A stretch of 24,033 bases of DNA from a virus. How positions within the stretch are numbered: position 1 is the first letter of the stretch; every line of letters starts with the position of its first letter. The notes under the pieces are model-generated. The model was given only the letters and a program-made list of their open reading frames with translations, made no database searches and was not told where the DNA came from. Where the stretch lies: positions 1 to 24,033 of IMG/VR virus record IMGVR_UViG_3300037319_000142. One strand, given 5' to 3'. Both the position numbers and the translations under genes were made by a program. Positions 2,931-24,033 of this stretch are shown in pieces.

Positions 2931-3613
2931 AGTAGCTTTCCCGTGTATTTATCATTATCGAAATCATTTTTAAGTTGAAAAGTTGAAAGGGTTTGGGCGG
3001 TTACGTAGAACACATCTTTGTGCCGACCACCGTCGTTATCGTCGAAGAAATTGATAGCTAATAATGTTGAATTAGCTGAGTGCGTTATTGTGTCACCATT
3101 GCCTTTCTCGTCAATCTGAATTATCACGATTGCTGCTGAGCCACCCCCCGCGATTAGGCTTGTTAACCAATCGTTTTCGTTTCCGTCAAACCCGTTCTGA
3201 ACAGCTACGTCATAAGCTGAATAGCCCCGTGACAAGTTGAGCAAAGACGCGGTAGCGGTGAACGTGTTAGCTACCATTTCAACCGTAATTGCGTAATCTA
3301 TCCCGGCATTGGTTTCGTTGGAGGCATTACCTAATGTCAGTTCAGATGTAATCGTTTCGGCGTGTACCATCCTCGCTCCAAACACCGCATCAATCAGCGT
3401 TAGATTAAGTCTATACCTACCCGTAAGCGTGTTGGTTAATGCGGAACTTAACTCGCCCCGAAAGATGCGTGGATTAGCTGTTGCCCCCGCTATTAAGTTG
3501 ATTGGGTTAAGCGTTTCGATTGCAATAAGTAGTCCCGTCAACCCCGAAACGTCATATTCAGCAGGTAATTCAACCGACACGGTGAAAGAATCGCCTCTTT
3601 TGATTGTTATCAT
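2915..3613 (-). CDS. Phage baseplate/tail fibre-associated protein
   Basis: This 232-residue protein has no signal peptide. Its N-terminus (IKRGDSFTVSVELP) resembles the beta-sandwich domain found at the start of baseplate or fibre-anchor proteins. Around residues 130-152 there is the short phrase SAYDVAVQNGFDGNENDWL followed by LTSLIAGG, a linker motif common in phage fibre and baseplate proteins. The role is probably attachment of a receptor-binding part to the tail tip. The start overlaps the stop of the gene before it by ATGA (3610-3613), and its 3' end overlaps the adhesin-like gene. The exact family is uncertain. Confidence 0.7.
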   Translation of the reverse strand: MITIKRGDSFTVSVELPAEYDVSGLTGLLIAIETLNPINLIAGATANPRIFRGELSSALTNTLTGRYRLNLTLIDAVFGARMVHAETITSELTLGNASNETNAGIDYAITVEMVANTFTATASLLNLSRGYSAYDVAVQNGFDGNENDWLTSLIAGGGSAAIVIIQIDEKGNGDTITHSANSTLLAINFFDDNDGGRHKDVFYVTAQTLSTFQLKNDFDNDKYTGKLLCVKY

Positions 3614-3954
3614 TTGATGAATCCGTTATTAACTAAGTGAATAGCAAGATTTGATTCAGTTGCTGTTTTTTCACTCTCGCCGTTTTTGAAAGTGAGGTTT
3701 GTCGGGGTGTTGTCTACCGTTTTGAATAGGTCTAATGCAAGCGGGGTGAACTCAAAAAGTTCCTCAAGAAAAGATTCAATCCCCGCTTCTTTGTCGCTTG
3801 CTTCGATTTTTTGCAAATCTTGAAGTTCGCCACTAACCATCTCAATTGACTTTGACAATTGCAACAACTTTGCTTTGCCTATGAACTCTACGGATTTGCC
3901 GTTTACTAATGCCATTATCGCGGCGTGTGTACCTATCGCTTCTCTATTCGTCAT
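3610..3954 (-). CDS. Hypothetical phage protein, first gene of the third structural series
   Basis: This is a 114-residue, mostly helical, acidic protein with no signal peptide and no motif that I recognise. A central part rich in Leu, Glu and Lys (residues about 30-80) may be a coiled coil. It is the first gene after the giant tail gene and follows a 68-bp gap carrying one copy of the repeated 21-bp motif, 22 bp before its ATG. That position suggests it heads a separately controlled unit with the fibre, adhesin and secreted protein genes. It could be a small assembly chaperone for the fibre proteins that follow; this is a guess from order alone. Confidence 0.75.
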   Translation of the reverse strand: MTNREAIGTHAAIMALVNGKSVEFIGKAKLLQLSKSIEMVSGELQDLQKIEASDKEAGIESFLEELFEFTPLALDLFKTVDNTPTNLTFKNGESEKTATESNLAIHLVNNGFIK

Positions 3955-3975: not shown

Positions 3976-3997
3976 TAATATTGTGCAATATAGCGAT
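3976..3997 (-). promoter_or_regulatory. Operator-like 21-bp motif, copy B
   Basis: Read on the plus strand, two 10-bp units follow each other, TAATATTGTG (3976-3985) and CAATATAGCG (3986-3995), then AT. Over the shared 21 bp it matches copy A (22985-23005) and copy C (16679-16699) at 18 positions each. It lies 22 bp upstream of the minus-strand gene starting at 3954. Two units one helical turn apart suggest a protein binding two subunits on one face. Function as operator or phage promoter is inferred. Confidence 0.65.
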
Positions 3998-15979: not shown

Positions 15980-16645
15980 TTAGATTTTAAATTGTTCGAT
16001 TAATTCGAGAAATTCTGTCGTCGGCAAAGTGTCTGGTGACGGCTTTGTGAGTTGCTTTATTTGCTCTTGTATAAATTCAAATTGCGGTATGATTACCGTC
16101 TTAAATGTTTCGTCTGAATACGTGCCACTTGATATGGCTTTCGTAAGGTTTTCAAATAATTCGGCGTAATCGGCGGCTGATTTTACGCCTATTACGGGGG
16201 TAAACGGGTTGGATGCATCTACTTGTAAACCTGACCCCTCGGCTAGGTATAATTCAGAAAGGATGTTACCCTCAATACTCATTTGTTCTTTTATCTTTCG
16301 ATAGCCTATTGAGTGTTGGGTTATGATCTTATCTTCGACCATTTTTAAGTAGTCTTGCCCTGCTGTCCAGTTCCCCACTTTTCCTTCATAATACAGTCCG
16401 TAGTCATCTTCTTTTAATTCCAGAAAATGACCTACGTTTTTATATTTATCGTGGTCTTGGAGAAAACGAATGGATTTTTTGCCGTTCGGGCCACGCTCGG
16501 CAATTGTTTTGGCAAATGCCCCTTTCCGCACTACGTCGCCGTCGTTATCTTTTACGTCAAATGCCGACAAATAACCCATTACAATTCCTTGCTTTGTGTC
16601 TACGTCCTGAATACTTGACTTACTACCGTGCGATTTATACAGCAT
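15980..16645 (-). CDS. Prohead protease, HK97 (U35) family
   Basis: The 221-residue serine protease matures the procapsid by cutting scaffold parts. Visible motifs: GYLSAFDVKDNDGDVVRKGAF at residues about 24-44, the catalytic His in QDHDKYKNVGH (His65) and the catalytic Ser in TQHSIGYR (Ser112). The C-terminal third is acidic and probably removed after assembly. An ATG at 16675 is in frame but lies at the edge of the 21-bp motif; the ATG at 16645 starts with the expected MLYKSHGSK and is preferred. It heads the second structural series, with motif copy C upstream and a divergent gene beyond it. Confidence 0.9.
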   Translation of the reverse strand: MLYKSHGSKSSIQDVDTKQGIVMGYLSAFDVKDNDGDVVRKGAFAKTIAERGPNGKKSIRFLQDHDKYKNVGHFLELKEDDYGLYYEGKVGNWTAGQDYLKMVEDKIITQHSIGYRKIKEQMSIEGNILSELYLAEGSGLQVDASNPFTPVIGVKSAADYAELFENLTKAISSGTYSDETFKTVIIPQFEFIQEQIKQLTKPSPDTLPTTEFLELIEQFKI

Positions 16646-16677: not shown

Positions 16678-16699
16678 TAATATTGCGTAATATTGCGAT
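16678..16699. promoter_or_regulatory. Operator-like 21-bp motif, copy C, perfect 10-bp tandem repeat
   Basis: The unit TAATATTGCG occurs twice without a gap (16678-16687 and 16688-16697), followed by AT. The motif lies in the divergent region between the protease gene (minus) and the gene at 16753 (plus). The second unit includes the TTG at 16693-16695 that fits the -33 element of the plus promoter, so a protein bound here should affect that gene directly. Strong match to copies A and B. The function is inferred. Confidence 0.7.
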
Positions 16700-16723
16700 A
16701 ATGGAACGGGTTGGCTATATTTG
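16693..16723 (+). promoter_or_regulatory. Bacteroidota-type promoter for the gene at 16753
   Basis: TTG (16693-16695), 20 bases, then TATATTTG (16716-16723) matches the -33/-7 form TTG-N19/21-TAnnTTTG used by the main sigma factor in Bacteroidota. The leader would be about 25 bases to the ATG at 16753. Its upstream element is part of operator copy C. Confidence 0.65.
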
Positions 16724-16752
16724 TACTTCACCATTACTTATATGTACTTCAA

Positions 16753-17166
16753 ATGAAATACCACGACGATTATGTATGTCAGGTCAAAGACATATCAAAG
16801 TACTTCGGAGTTAGTCCAAACACGGGCAAAAATATGCGAGATAAAACCAAGTTGAGGTTTGGCGTAAAGTTTCGTGGGAAAGTGACCATATCGCAGGTGC
16901 GAACCGCCAACGGCCTGGACAGCAAGGTGGCGATAAGCTACGGGGAACTATTAGCTAATAACATCCTTGAAATCTGCTCGGAGTTGCGAGAGTCAAAAGG
17001 ATTGACCGCTACTCATAGTTACGTGAGCATTGCGGATGAGTCGGTATTTTACGAATTGCTTAAGACTTTGTGCGAAAAGCACGAAATATCTGAGCAGGTT
17101 ATTATCAGGATTCTATCAATACGAAGTGCAGTTTCATCGAATTACCAAGAAGAAATATGCAAATAG
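16753..17166 (+). CDS. Possible DNA-binding regulator, divergent from the late genes
   Basis: This 137-residue protein is the first plus-strand gene. The ATG at 16753 is chosen because it lies about 30 bases behind the promoter; a TTG at 16711 is in frame but lies inside that promoter. The N-terminal 50 residues look like a small helix-turn-helix or winged domain (VKDISKYFGVSPNTGKNM, then a basic strand pair FGVKFRGKVTI). The rest is helical (ISYGELLANNILEICSEL, FYELLKTLCEKHEISEQVIIRI) and could dimerise. Divergent placement with an operator-like repeat in its own promoter suggests an autoregulated protein acting on the late genes. The product is not recognised as any known family. The last codons (NYQEE then ICK) appear altered by an insertion; see the 15-bp repeats. 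Confidence 0.6.
   Translation: MKYHDDYVCQVKDISKYFGVSPNTGKNMRDKTKLRFGVKFRGKVTISQVRTANGLDSKVAISYGELLANNILEICSELRESKGLTATHSYVSIADESVFYELLKTLCEKHEISEQVIIRILSIRSAVSSNYQEEICK
17140..17154. repeat. 15-bp direct repeat, left copy, at the inserted segment
   Basis: AATTACCAAGAAGAA here is identical to 17936-17950. Both copies stand just before an ATG. Deleting 17155-17950 would let the regulator end as ...NYQEES with a TGA overlapping the next ATG by ATGA, the coupling seen all over this phage. That supports the copies as junctions of an insertion. Confidence 0.65.
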
Positions 17167-17228
17167 GTTACGCACGTGTTTCTACGCACGAACAAAATAC
17201 AGATTTGCAAATTGATGCGTTCTACTAA
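17157..17228 (+). pseudogene. Serine recombinase (resolvase/invertase) N-terminal stub
   Basis: The ATG at 17157 opens a 23-codon frame reading MQIGYARVSTHEQNTDLQID and then a stop. GYARVSTxEQNxDLQ is the catalytic N-terminus of small serine recombinases; the Ser in RVST is the nucleophile of the family. Functional enzymes have about 180-200 residues, so the gene is cut off after the first beta-strand and part of helix A. The break lies at the sequence CTACTAATGCCACATAACA. The remainder is not in the window. It is probably the relic of an element that took part in building this island. Confidence 0.85.
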
Positions 17229-17243
17229 TGCCACATAACAGAT

Positions 17244-17591
17244 ATGAAAATAATAATAGCAGGAGGCAGAAACTTTAACGATTACAGTAAACTTTGTCAA
17301 GTTTGTAATAAAATACTATTGAAACAAAACGAAATTGAAATAGTAAGCGGCACTGCCAATGGTGCTGACAAGCTAGGCGAAAAATATGCAGTTGATAACG
17401 GACACCCAATAAAGCAATTCCCTGCTGACTGGGATAAGTTTGGCAAAAGTGCAGGATATAAAAGAAACGCCGAAATGGCTGAATACGCAGATGCCTTAAT
17501 TGCTTTTTGGGATGGGAAAAGCAGAGGCACTAAACATATGATTGACTTGGCAAAACGTGCTAAATTGAAGGTGCGAATTAGTTATTTTTAA
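17244..17591 (+). CDS. SLOG-family protein, YspA/DUF2493-like
   Basis: This 115-residue protein has the motif series of the YspA-type (DUF2493) branch of the SLOG/YpsA superfamily: IIIAGGRNF at residues 3-11, VSGTANGADKLGEKYA near 34-49, FPADWDKFGKSAGYKRNAEM near 59-78 and AFWDGKSRGTKHMI near 87-100. SLOG proteins have a Rossmann-like fold and are thought to bind nucleotides or nucleotide-derived signals; many are found in phages and in phage-defence contexts, but no reaction is proven for this branch. It is a complete single-domain protein. It follows the recombinase stub by 15 bp and seems more A+T-rich than the structural genes, fitting acquired cargo. Confidence 0.85.
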   Translation: MKIIIAGGRNFNDYSKLCQVCNKILLKQNEIEIVSGTANGADKLGEKYAVDNGHPIKQFPADWDKFGKSAGYKRNAEMAEYADALIAFWDGKSRGTKHMIDLAKRAKLKVRISYF

Positions 17592-17653
17592 TTGCACATA
17601 CCGTGTTGTGTGCTTTGGCGGCTTTACAGCACTAACCTTAATTAATAATCGAA

Positions 17654-17917
17654 ATGAAAAAAGAACTATTAATCCATTTCACCGATGTTTCGGTTTGCTT
17701 GGACAACCTTAAAGAACTTAGAATCAAAATATCTCCAAGATGTAAAAACACAATTAAATTACTTCACAGCAGCGTTATGATTGTAGGCTCAGAAATGCCA
17801 CAAAAAATAATGGCAGAAATTTGTTTTAGAACAGCAAACCGAATTATCAGGAACATTGAAATGGAAACAGAATTTCGCTTTAAAAGGTATAAACTTCATA
17901 ATTACCTACTAACGTAA
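17654..17917 (+). CDS. Hypothetical small basic protein (cargo)
   Basis: The 87-residue product is Lys/Arg-rich and mostly helical (LDNLKELRIKISPRCKNTIKLL, MAEICFRTANRIIRNIEME). No known family is recognised. It lies 62 bp after the SLOG gene and ends with TAACCATTG before a CACATAACA sequence, the same nonamer that precedes the SLOG gene, so the two genes may be one mobile unit. The gap before it (17592-17653) holds a weak GCACA/TGTGC inverted repeat with a 10-base loop. Confidence 0.55.
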   Translation: MKKELLIHFTDVSVCLDNLKELRIKISPRCKNTIKLLHSSVMIVGSEMPQKIMAEICFRTANRIIRNIEMETEFRFKRYKLHNYLLT

Positions 17918-17935
17918 CCATTGCACATAACACCA

Positions 17936-17950
17936 AATTACCAAGAAGAA
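17936..17950. repeat. 15-bp direct repeat, right copy
   Basis: This is identical to 17140-17154, 796 bp apart, and again placed just before an ATG (17953). Confidence 0.65.
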
Positions 17951-17952
17951 TC

Positions 17953-18021
17953 ATGACACTAGGAAAGCTGTTGATTGAATTAGGCGACATTGAGTTCGTA
18001 AATCGAGAACTAAACAATTAA
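17953..18021 (+). CDS. Very short frame (22 residues), possibly the remnant of an interrupted gene
   Basis: The frame reads MTLGKLLIELGDIEFVNREL and ends NN. The part LIELGDIEF is nearly repeated at 18245-18271 as MIELGEIEF, in a second short frame (to 18319) that runs into the MuF gene on the other strand. Removal of the 274 bp between the copies would give one 30-residue frame. A functional peptide cannot be claimed. Confidence 0.3.
   Translation: MTLGKLLIELGDIEFVNRELNN
17972..17996. repeat. 25-bp direct repeat, left copy
   Basis: It matches 18246-18270 at 24 of 25 positions (TGATTGAATTAGGCGA, one differing base, ATTGAGTT). The pair encloses the gene at 18034. Confidence 0.85.
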
Positions 18022-18033
18022 AAGACTAAAATA

Positions 18034-18252
18034 ATGAGTGAAGATATTAAAAAACCAAACGAACAAAAGGTGTTAAATATAGGTGATGTTTTGCCTAGTT
18101 TATTATGGGAAATAGCAGGAAAGATAGTTGAAAAACAAAAGTACTGTTATAGCCAAGACCCCAAAAAAAATGGCACTGTTCTATGGGAAATGGTGGACGA
18201 AGAATGGTTTGATTACTTAGAGGAAAAACTAACTGGTATAAAAAATGATTGA
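18034..18252 (+). CDS. Hypothetical small acidic protein (cargo)
   Basis: The 72-residue product (MSEDIKKPNEQKVLNIGDVL, LLWEIAGKIVEKQKYCY, LWEMVDEEWFDYLEEKLTG) is acidic with several Trp and has no signal peptide. I do not recognise it. It is enclosed by a 24/25 direct repeat, its stop overlapping the second copy (AAAAATGATTGA), so it looks like a small inserted cassette. It converges on the minus-strand MuF gene with 46 bp between the stops and no clear terminator. Confidence 0.55.
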   Translation: MSEDIKKPNEQKVLNIGDVLPSLLWEIAGKIVEKQKYCYSQDPKKNGTVLWEMVDEEWFDYLEEKLTGIKND

Positions 18253-22184: not shown

Positions 22185-22328
22185 TTAAAAACCAACCTCT
22201 GCGATGTCTGCGGCTAATTGTGATGCAGTTTGTCGTTTTGGTTTTCTTTTTGAACCCCTCGATTGTGGAGCAAACCCTAATGCTCTTGCCTTATTTATCC
22301 CTTCGTATTTGTCGCTACCTGACCCCAT
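22185..22328 (-). CDS. Small basic protein (47 residues) before the terminase
   Basis: This short gene starts with ATG 22328 inside the end of the PLD-like gene (34 bp overlap) and ends 40 bp before the small terminase. The product is MGSGSDKYEGINKARALGFA followed by a Lys/Arg-rich stretch (SRGSKRKPKRQ) and a short helix (TASQLAADIAEVGF). It is strongly basic and could bind nucleic acid. I know no family. Its existence is supported by the overlap and by otherwise empty space. Confidence 0.6.
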   Translation of the reverse strand: MGSGSDKYEGINKARALGFAPQSRGSKRKPKRQTASQLAADIAEVGF

Positions 22329-22978
22329 AATTTTCTATACCTTAGTGATTTTTTAATTGTCTTATAATAATCGACTATCCTTTGCTGATATTCAAAGTTG
22401 AAATCGTATAACGCCTTACTTTCTTCTACAACAATTTGTTCAATATTGCTCGAACTTCTTAGATTGGCTGACCCGTGAATGCAAACAAACTTCCCACATT
22501 CAGTTTCAAAAATACACATCTTGCAATGGCTCCCCGCCACAGCTAACTGGAACATATCGTTTTTGTTCAGGTGGTGATAGATGTAAGGAACCAACCCTTG
22601 TCGCTCGTGACTGAAAAAGTAATCTGAAACTATCAGGTCCAATTTCTCCAAATAACCACCTTCGACTAAATTCACTAAAGAATCTACGTTTGCGGCACTC
22701 AGAGATAATGTTGAAATAGTCATTGACTTTATCAACCAGTTATTTTTCACAATTAGGGCTTCGATATAATCCCCAAAAATAAACTTACCGTCGATAATGA
22801 CGAAGTGTCGGCAGTCCTTTTCTATGGGCAAATCATTTGCCAAATCTTCTGCTAACTGATATTTTAAGTATTGCTCATCTATCTCGTATATTTTTCTTGG
22901 GGTAATGTAGGCTGTGTCAAATTTCTTCGCACCACCTACATTGATGTCTATTGTGATTGGTCTTATGTTAATTTCCAT
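22295..22978 (-). CDS. Phospholipase D-like domain protein, probable nuclease
   Basis: The 227-residue protein carries a single HKD-like catalytic motif: HCKMCIFE (His151, Lys153), then HGSANLRSSSNIEQ (Gly-Ser-x-Asn at 169-172, Glu180), preceded by a beta-rich domain (FVIIDGKFIFGDYIEAL, MTISTLSLSAANVDSL). In the second part of the motif the usual Asp is replaced by Glu158 or absent. One motif per chain suggests a dimer, as in the Nuc family of PLD nucleases. The place directly before the terminase genes is where phages often keep an HNH endonuclease, so a role in DNA packaging is likely. ATG 22978 is preferred over 23017, which would place the start upstream of the 21-bp motif. Confidence 0.8.
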   Translation of the reverse strand: MEINIRPITIDINVGGAKKFDTAYITPRKIYEIDEQYLKYQLAEDLANDLPIEKDCRHFVIIDGKFIFGDYIEALIVKNNWLIKSMTISTLSLSAANVDSLVNLVEGGYLEKLDLIVSDYFFSHERQGLVPYIYHHLNKNDMFQLAVAGSHCKMCIFETECGKFVCIHGSANLRSSSNIEQIVVEESKALYDFNFEYQQRIVDYYKTIKKSLRYRKLWGQVATNTKG

Positions 22979-22983
22979 AATTG

Positions 22984-23005
22984 TAATATAACGCAATATA
23001 GCGAT
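22984..23005 (-). promoter_or_regulatory. Operator-like 21-bp motif, copy A
   Basis: On the plus strand TAATATAACG (22984-22993) and CAATATAGCG (22994-23003) are followed by AT. It lies only 5-6 bp upstream of the PLD-like gene ATG. It matches copy B at 18 and copy C at 17 of 21 positions. Because it is so near the start codon, a bound protein could block transcription, or the motif may replace the -7 region of a phage-type promoter. Confidence 0.65.
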
Positions 23006-23116
23006 TTTAGGTTTCAAAAAAAAGTCTATTTTTCTTGGATTACGAAAGACAACCGGTTAGTGTTGATGCCATACGGCTGTCGCCGAACAGCACAAACAGG
23101 AACGTTGTAAGAAATA
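23006..23116. other. Intergenic region with inverted repeats
   Basis: This gap holds a small hairpin GCTGT-cgccga-ACAGC (23076-23091) and one arm of a 9-bp perfect inverted repeat, CACAAACAG (23091-23099) with CTGTTTGTG (23126-23134) inside the end of the next gene. On the minus strand an eight-T run follows further downstream, too far for a textbook terminator. It could end the upstream transcript before the packaging block. Confidence 0.35.
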
Positions 23117-23323
23117 CTACAAAAACTGTTTGTGTTTTGAGCGTATAATAGAACGCTTCATAATTTTGCAGTTCTCATCTTCGTAATCCTCTAAATCCAA
23201 ATCCCTGTTTTGATACATTGTATGTTTTGATATTTGAATCATTTCAGATTCATTGTCAAAAAGCACTTTTAGCGAACCGTATAAAACTACACGGTTCGCT
23301 TTTTTGTCGATGAATATTAGCAT
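23117..23323 (-). CDS. Hypothetical small protein
   Basis: This 68-residue protein starts with two beta-strands (MLIFIDKKANRVVLYGSLKVLF), has an acidic middle (RDLDLEDYEDENC) and a strongly basic end (KIMKRSIIRSKHKQFL). No family is recognised. Its ATG shares one base with the stop of the preceding gene (TAATG), so both are translationally linked. The ORF uses A+T-rich codons like the neighbouring genes at this end. Confidence 0.65.
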   Translation of the reverse strand: MLIFIDKKANRVVLYGSLKVLFDNESEMIQISKHTMYQNRDLDLEDYEDENCKIMKRSIIRSKHKQFL

Positions 23324-23706
23324 TAGTCTATTGTATAATTTGGGGTAAATGCTACTTCTTTTACACTATTTACTGCTGCAAACAAAACCTTGATGGTGTC
23401 ATCCATCGTCTTCGTTTGCACTTCCAGTTCTTGTATGTATATGGACTTATTATTTTGTAAGTATTCGGTGAGTTCTATAAGTTCGTCAACTGACGCATAA
23501 GTATCTACTGAAAAGTGATCGGTAATATATTTATTCGTAATGTTTTTTCTTTCTATCAAAAACATTACACACTCGCTCAATGGCATGGTTAATGCTTCTA
23601 AAAATGCTTCTTTATTTTTTCTGAAAAGTTCAAGTGCTGTATTTTCCATTTTCATATCATCAGTTAAATCTACGTTGCTATTTTTAAAATTATGTAAAGT
23701 TGTCAT
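23323..23706 (-). CDS. Hypothetical protein
   Basis: This 127-residue protein is acidic and largely helical (ALELFRKNKEAFLEALTMPLSECVMFLIERKN, then TYASVDELIELTEYLQNNK and TKTMDDTIKVLFAAVNSVKEV in shortened view). It may be a coiled-coil accessory protein. There is no recognisable motif, signal peptide or membrane segment. It lies 26 bp after the HTH-like gene and overlaps the following gene by one base; the set probably belongs to the early/middle region that precedes the structural genes. Confidence 0.7.
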   Translation of the reverse strand: MTTLHNFKNSNVDLTDDMKMENTALELFRKNKEAFLEALTMPLSECVMFLIERKNITNKYITDHFSVDTYASVDELIELTEYLQNNKSIYIQELEVQTKTMDDTIKVLFAAVNSVKEVAFTPNYTID

Positions 23707-23732: not shown

Positions 23733-23933
23733 TTAAATAAATTTGCTTGATTCTTTCAATCCGTTCTCCAACTCAAAAACGATTATCATTCCTTTGATTG
23801 GGAACTTCTTAGCGGAGTAGAGTGAACTCAAGAAGCTCTGGCGGCTTCTGTACCCGCACATCTCTGACACCTTCGTATCAGTCCAGTCATAGTGGACTTT
23901 CATACGGTCATAGCGTTCTTTCCAAGTCATCAT
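23733..23933 (-). CDS. Small HTH-like protein
   Basis: The 66-residue product starts at ATG 23933, just after the stop of the previous gene (TGATATGATG), not at an in-frame TTG at 23975 that would overlap that gene. It reads MMTWKERYDRMKVHYDWTD, then KVSEMCGYRSRQSFLSSLYS and KKFPIKGMIIVFELENGL. The core resembles a Cro/XRE-type helix-turn-helix with recognition helix around SRQSFLSSL, similar in layout to small phage regulators of Bacteroidota. It may regulate early genes. The assignment rests on pattern only. Confidence 0.55.
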   Translation of the reverse strand: MMTWKERYDRMKVHYDWTDTKVSEMCGYRSRQSFLSSLYSAKKFPIKGMIIVFELENGLKESSKFI

Positions 23934-23934
23934 A

Positions 23935-24033
23935 TCAAAAATTGAAGTCAACATCAAAGTTTGCATCTGATTCAAAGACGACCTTGCCGAACTCCGAAAG
24001 ATTGTCTATCCAGACCATAGGGTCTTTGTCTGT
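23935..24033 (-). CDS. C-terminal end of an unknown gene (5' end beyond the window)
   Basis: The last 32 codons of a minus-strand gene are visible, ending at TGA 23937-23935, two bases before the next ATG. The residues read DKDPMVWIDNLSEFGKVVF and ESDANFDVDFNF, an acidic tail. Function cannot be told. The tight junction with the HTH-like gene supports that it is a real gene in the same unit. Confidence 0.6.
   Translation of the reverse strand, partial: TDKDPMVWIDNLSEFGKVVFESDANFDVDFNF

Follow-up and report, generated by a model that had tools for sequence, protein, structure and literature searches.

The window analysed here, a 24,033-base IMG/VR virus record, is likely a fragment of a Bacteroidota phage, given the TAnnTTTG form of its promoters and the position of Flavobacterium phages as the closest cultured-phage records by major capsid protein (37%). 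The minus strand carries the terminase, portal, minor head, protease, capsid, tail and fibre genes. The sole block on the opposite strand (16753–18252, +) is flanked by the minor head gene and the protease, and its first gene, named REG in this work, encodes a protein of 137 residues. The features of the locus are collected in Table 1.

Late motif and gene layout

The motif CGCNATATTRCRYWATATTA was found exactly three times in the 24 kb, each time on the minus (late) strand, and one copy was located immediately before each of three late gene series. The chance expectation was 0.10 matches at up to three mismatches, and three copies were reached in none of 100 shuffles. The core common to the relatives was ATCGCWATATTRCRYWATATTA, with AT at two more fixed positions behind it. 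No TAnnTTTG element was present just downstream of copies A, B and C, which indicates that the late promoters do not have the host housekeeping form. The start codon of the gene at 22295–22978 (−) was only 5 nt behind copy B, so that this gene would either be leaderless or start further in; the matching gene in contig L006 ended after 17 codons.

Copy C had been described in an earlier note as the only copy that is a perfect 10-bp tandem repeat. This held within the window and did not extend to the clade, in which copy C carried one substitution in each of four of the ten relatives (L006, L007, L008 and L009). In L014 (genome G010), an exact 10-bp deletion had left a single unit of copy C, with the REG promoter intact and REG retained. 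REG also persisted in G005, in which copy A was degraded.

Table 1. Positions of the late motif copies, the REG gene, its promoter and the neighbouring genes in the window
Feature	Position	Strand	Remarks
Motif copy A	3976..3995	−	Precedes the gene at 3610–3954 and the genes beyond
Head maturation protease	15980..16642	−	Opens the late series behind copy C; phrog_80, E 4e-27
Motif copy C	16678..16697	−	CGCAATATTA twice; precedes the head maturation protease series and overlies the REG −33 element
−33 TTG, REG promoter	16693..16695	+	Within the second unit of copy C
−7 element TATATTTG, REG promoter	16716..16723	+	TAnnTTTG type; predicted start 16728
Further half site GTACTTCA	16723–16730	+	Weak candidate REG operator
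Imperfect inverted repeat GTACTTCA-AA-TGAAATAC	16744..16761	+	Spans the REG start codon; weak candidate REG operator
REG gene, 137 aa	16753..17166	+	Probable N-terminal HTH, helical C-terminus; dN/dS 0.17, weak HTH matches
Truncated serine recombinase, 24 codons	17157..17228	+	Overlaps the REG stop; intact 185-aa version at this place in L006
Cargo gene, YspA-type SLOG protein (PF10686)	17244..17591	+	E 2e-15
Cargo ORF, 87 aa, no assigned function	17654..17917	+	ORF list
Cargo ORF, 72 aa, no assigned function	18034..18252	+	ORF list
Motif copy B	22984..23003	−	Precedes the terminase/portal series

The REG protein and its promoter

The REG promoter was composed of TTG-N20-TATATTTG, which places the TTG near −35 to −33, and had the Bacteroidota sigma-A form, a −7 TAnnTTTG and a −33 TTG or TTTG at the proper spacing. 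The TAnnTTTG element sits at −12 to −5 (PMC9723704), and full promoter activity needs the −33 element (PMC2483708). The TTG was located inside the second unit of copy C, 20 nt from TATATTTG, in agreement with the earlier assignment of the −33 element to this unit. The assignment of an own promoter to the gene was likewise borne out in form, with the pair intact in all ten relatives. Shuffling the intergenic stretch produced such a TTG and −7 pair in 0.95% of cases, and no other predicted plus-strand promoter of the TAnnTTTG type was present between 16693 and 18252 of the window.

No inverted repeat stood out in the REG core promoter. Several imperfect repeats (7 of 8 matches) were distributed over 160 bp, across the start codon and in and beside copy C, at a level near chance, and a 9-nt direct repeat was reached in 2.1% of shuffles. 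The repeat over the start codon had decayed to GTACCTC in most relatives. The GTACTTC repeats are only suggestive as a candidate operator of REG.

The REG reading frame was kept in ten relatives with 94–97% amino acid identity in a locus search; in L014 (G010) it ended nine codons sooner than in the window. The overall dN/dS of 0.17 corresponds to purifying selection, and pN/pS was 0.07 in residues 1–58 versus 0.32 beyond. These values indicate a real protein with constraint at its N-terminus. As the earlier note had put it, the product matched no family: all scores against Pfam, PHROGs and NCBIfam stayed below cut-off, and no PDB relative was found. Remote homologues were likewise absent from IMG/VR outside the clade, GTDB contigs, phage and plasmid records, and 37 further phage contigs.

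Residues 11–46 of REG aligned to positions 4–38 of HTH_17 (PF12728) in the register of a helix-turn-helix and wing, with E values of 0.1 and, in a one-genome scan, 0.0015. This was the only HTH_17 match in the window, at a score (13.3–14.2 bits) that did not reach the Pfam gathering cut-off of 27. With an independent six-sequence HTH profile from other phages, REG was the best of the 29 window proteins, and its score was reached by 5 of 2000 shuffles (p about 0.0025). The two profiles thus lend weak support, below the family threshold, to the HTH-like N-terminus proposed earlier, and the N-terminus is a probable DNA-binding HTH. Structure prediction of the 137 residues was uninformative. AlphaFold2 gave a pLDDT of 43 for both the whole protein and residues 1–64 with no usable fold, probably because only near-identical homologues exist.

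The cargo island and the distribution of REG

REG was the one gene of the island that was never replaced in eleven genomes, whereas the sequence right behind its stop codon was exchanged. A serine recombinase occupied this place in L006, where it was whole, and in L010, L011 and the window, where it was truncated. In other relatives, the place was taken by a 120-aa protein of unknown function (whole in L005, L012 and L013, truncated in L008) or by other short ORFs (L007, L009 and L014). In seven of the ten relatives, the stop codon of REG and the following start codon overlapped (ATGA), an arrangement consistent with a translated operon. The island of L014 was almost empty and still contained REG. 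The retention of REG while the cargo was swapped, even in this near-empty island, marks it as the fixed element of the cargo island. The island had the same orientation as the early replication genes in G007. In L007 and L009, one cargo cassette had a TTG-N20-TATATTTG promoter of its own, which means that a single operon does not always span the island.

Further down the island, L009 contained a protein with an Acb2/Tad1 hairpin domain (PF24729, E 8e-13), and the same DNA region was present in L007. In L011, a Dam-type methylase (PF05869, E 4e-21) was found. Acb2 and Tad1 are phage sponges, which capture the second messengers used by abortive-infection defences (PMC12043709). A firm counter-defence domain was present in one cargo gene only; counter-defence roles of the SLOG and Dam proteins are guesses, and no anti-CRISPR was found among the island cargo.

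A two-gene cassette (127 and 68 aa) was located before copy B in the window (23117–23706, −) and within the REG island at L009 11076–11659 and L007 3125–3681 (+), which means that it has changed location within the phage genome; it is this cassette that has its own promoter in L007 and L009. The sequence TAGTATTTCTTACAAC recurred at cassette borders with a differing far side (window 23104, L007 3666, L009 11657, L010 4400, L011 10661 and L034 3679). Its sites included a break inside the L011 serine recombinase and the flank of a tyrosine integrase of G005. This integrase, at L009 11854–13062 (the left end of G005), adjoined a stretch resembling a tRNA 3′ end, and no integrase was present in those other clade contigs that were searched. 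Imperfect hairpins were observed behind cargo genes (window 17594–17640 and about 23045–23105, L009 10880–11000, and L008 6827). Their ends were GCACATAAC-like and CACTAACC-like, and they resemble integron attC sites or comparable cassette ends.

When 17 contigs were tested for the co-occurrence of gene and motif, all ten with REG had the motif, every contig covering the site had REG, and no site-covering contig had the motif without the gene. The joint occurrence that the earlier note had named as a check was thus observed, but within one near-identical clade only. The ten relatives with REG and motif had 97–99% alike major capsid proteins, and the co-occurrence therefore counts as one event, not ten. 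The exact motif without REG was found in G011 and six unrelated contigs. G011, with copies A and B, was rejected as a counterexample because its contig breaks off within the stretch where REG would lie, and L015–L017, L020, L021 and L026 were unrelated to the phage and taken as chance matches.

When a sister clade was compared with the window (capsid protein 63–64%, protease 51%, portal 44%), the late gene order was the same and an opposite-strand island was located at the same place. In the sister clade loci searched, REG was absent and the motif was not found with up to four mismatches allowed, and the gene adjoining the protease was an unrelated 119-aa gene. The motif and REG thus occurred together or were missing together, a pattern that is compatible with a late regulator and proves nothing. 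In the same divergent intergenic region, the sister clade (L138 14725–14765 of G023, L140 and L143) had four TTACA units 9–10 bp apart, an array found once per genome. Flavobacterium phage hattifnatt had no divergent gene at the REG site.

A pRha/anti-repressor-like gene (PF09669, E 9e-9) was located upstream of copy B and was constant in all four near-complete genomes, and other small genes were also as constant as REG. The pRha-like gene is a candidate for the late factor equal to REG. An 80-aa gene before copy B (23733–23975) was rejected for this role, as it was absent in G005 and G010 despite the presence of copy B there. In early promoters of G007 and G005, the element GTTRCGTA was located between −33 and −7, once as an inverted repeat (L030 17979–18011 and 10588–10619, minus strand; the same in L033), and is likely an early operator. 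A link between the late motif and this element was discarded, because G010 has the motif and early promoters without GTTRCGTA. A tRNA-Met (CAT) gene lay next to the early control region of the clade (L030 18688–18761).

Possible targets of REG

REG stands back to back with a late promoter and heads interchangeable cargo, and for this reason it more likely controls the swapped cargo than the late genes of the phage. The reading that we prefer, with a probability of about 0.45, is that REG acts as an Aca-like HTH auto-repressor of a cargo operon driven by a host-type promoter, and that a factor bound at copy C could shut this operon late in infection. The gene, the promoter form, the overlap with copy C, the constancy of REG beside exchanged cargo and the counter-defence-type genes in that cargo were all read from the DNA; DNA binding, auto-repression, early timing, occlusion and the identity of the late factor are what we infer. 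Host RNA polymerase would transcribe the operon early from TTG-N20-TATATTTG, and REG would accumulate and then repress its own operon. A late factor, probably encoded elsewhere, would bind copy C and exclude the polymerase from the REG promoter, so that the operon would go off as the divergent protease–capsid late series comes on. Because copy C overlaps the −33 element, any late factor bound there should have this effect, whichever it is. Placed over a counter-defence promoter, the late motif would offer a simple means of stopping counter-defence expression exactly at late onset.

The earlier note had proposed REG as a regulator of the late genes that also represses itself. Its individual elements, a real gene with a probable HTH, a promoter of its own and a −33 element under copy C, were largely retained, whereas control of the late series found no support. 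In that proposal, REG would bind the 10-bp repeats at A, B and C, activate or hold back three late series and repress itself at C. The three copies before three late series, the overlap of copy C with the −33 element, the presence of REG in all site-covering contigs with neither REG nor motif in the sister clade, and the need for a phage-specific late factor that follows from the lack of TAnnTTTG behind the motif copies all agree with it. However, the co-occurrence is a single event in near-identical phages, the pRha-like gene and other small genes are equally constant, and REG was kept when a unit of copy C was lost in L014 and copy A was degraded in G005. Furthermore, as the head of exchangeable cargo, REG has another obvious target in its own operon. 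We therefore regard control of the late series by REG as unlikely. A variant in which REG represents a new DNA-binding family and works as a bidirectional switch, shutting its own counter-defence operon at copy C while turning on the three late series and so tying both to one site, appears more doubtful still.

REG might instead be a passenger cargo protein with its own promoter, binding nucleic acid or itself serving in counter-defence, and the overlap with copy C would then reflect a crowded divergent intergenic region, with the late factor encoded elsewhere, for example by the pRha-like gene. The unrelated 119-aa gene at the same place in the sister clade, the weak HTH evidence, and the membership of the constant pRha-like gene in a known regulator family point in this direction. 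Yet a passenger would hardly be expected to escape replacement in eleven genomes while the rest of the island turns over, or to have its strongest selection at the N-terminus, and we consider this a possible but doubtful explanation. In L006, REG overlaps by ATGA with the gene of an intact DNA-invertase-type recombinase, which raises the idea that REG assists the serine recombinase behind it as an accessory DNA-binding protein or directionality factor. The recombinase was intact in one genome, truncated in three and absent from this place in seven, and REG remained under purifying selection despite its loss, which makes such a role very improbable.

If the auto-repressor reading is right, REG would mark counter-defence cargo in Bacteroidota phages, for which few marker genes are known to us, and the genes behind it would be candidates for new anti-defence proteins.

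Comparison with known systems

P2 Ogr and phi29 p4 are phage late activators that serve multiple promoters. The late series of the window resemble those under the late activator Mu C (PMC4461284) in that several of them share one motif without a host −7 element. No sequence relation of REG to Mu C, P2 Ogr or phi29 p4 was detected, however, and binding of REG to the motif is purely hypothetical. With the small HTH proteins of the excisionase–MerR type (HTH_17, PF12728), REG shares the helix-turn-helix and wing register in residues 11–46, but it differs in its score below the 27-bit cut-off and in a long helical C-terminus of unassigned kind. The pRha and anti-repressor proteins (PF09669) likewise provide a constant regulator-like gene in the clade, which is separate from and unrelated to REG.

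The Aca repressors (PMC9410906, PMC8434428, PMC7648647) were the closest in arrangement. In their regulatory logic, an HTH repressor acts on sites in a strong host-type promoter of clustered counter-defence genes (PMC9410906, PMC7648647). REG differs in its place at the head of its operon, since known aca genes usually come after acr; in that its promoter is without the clear core-promoter inverted repeat of the Aca families; and in its cargo of an Acb2/Tad1-type sponge, Dam and SLOG proteins in place of a known anti-CRISPR. REG was not filed as an Aca, because searches of NCBIfam, Pfam and PHROGs gave no match to a known Aca family and no relative was found in the PDB. The likeness is one of arrangement: REG is small, has a probable HTH, is constant beside exchangeable counter-defence cargo, and likewise has a host-type promoter upstream. 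It was by arrangement, a constant HTH gene beside variable counter-defence genes, that the Aca repressors themselves were found (PMC7648647, PMC9410906).
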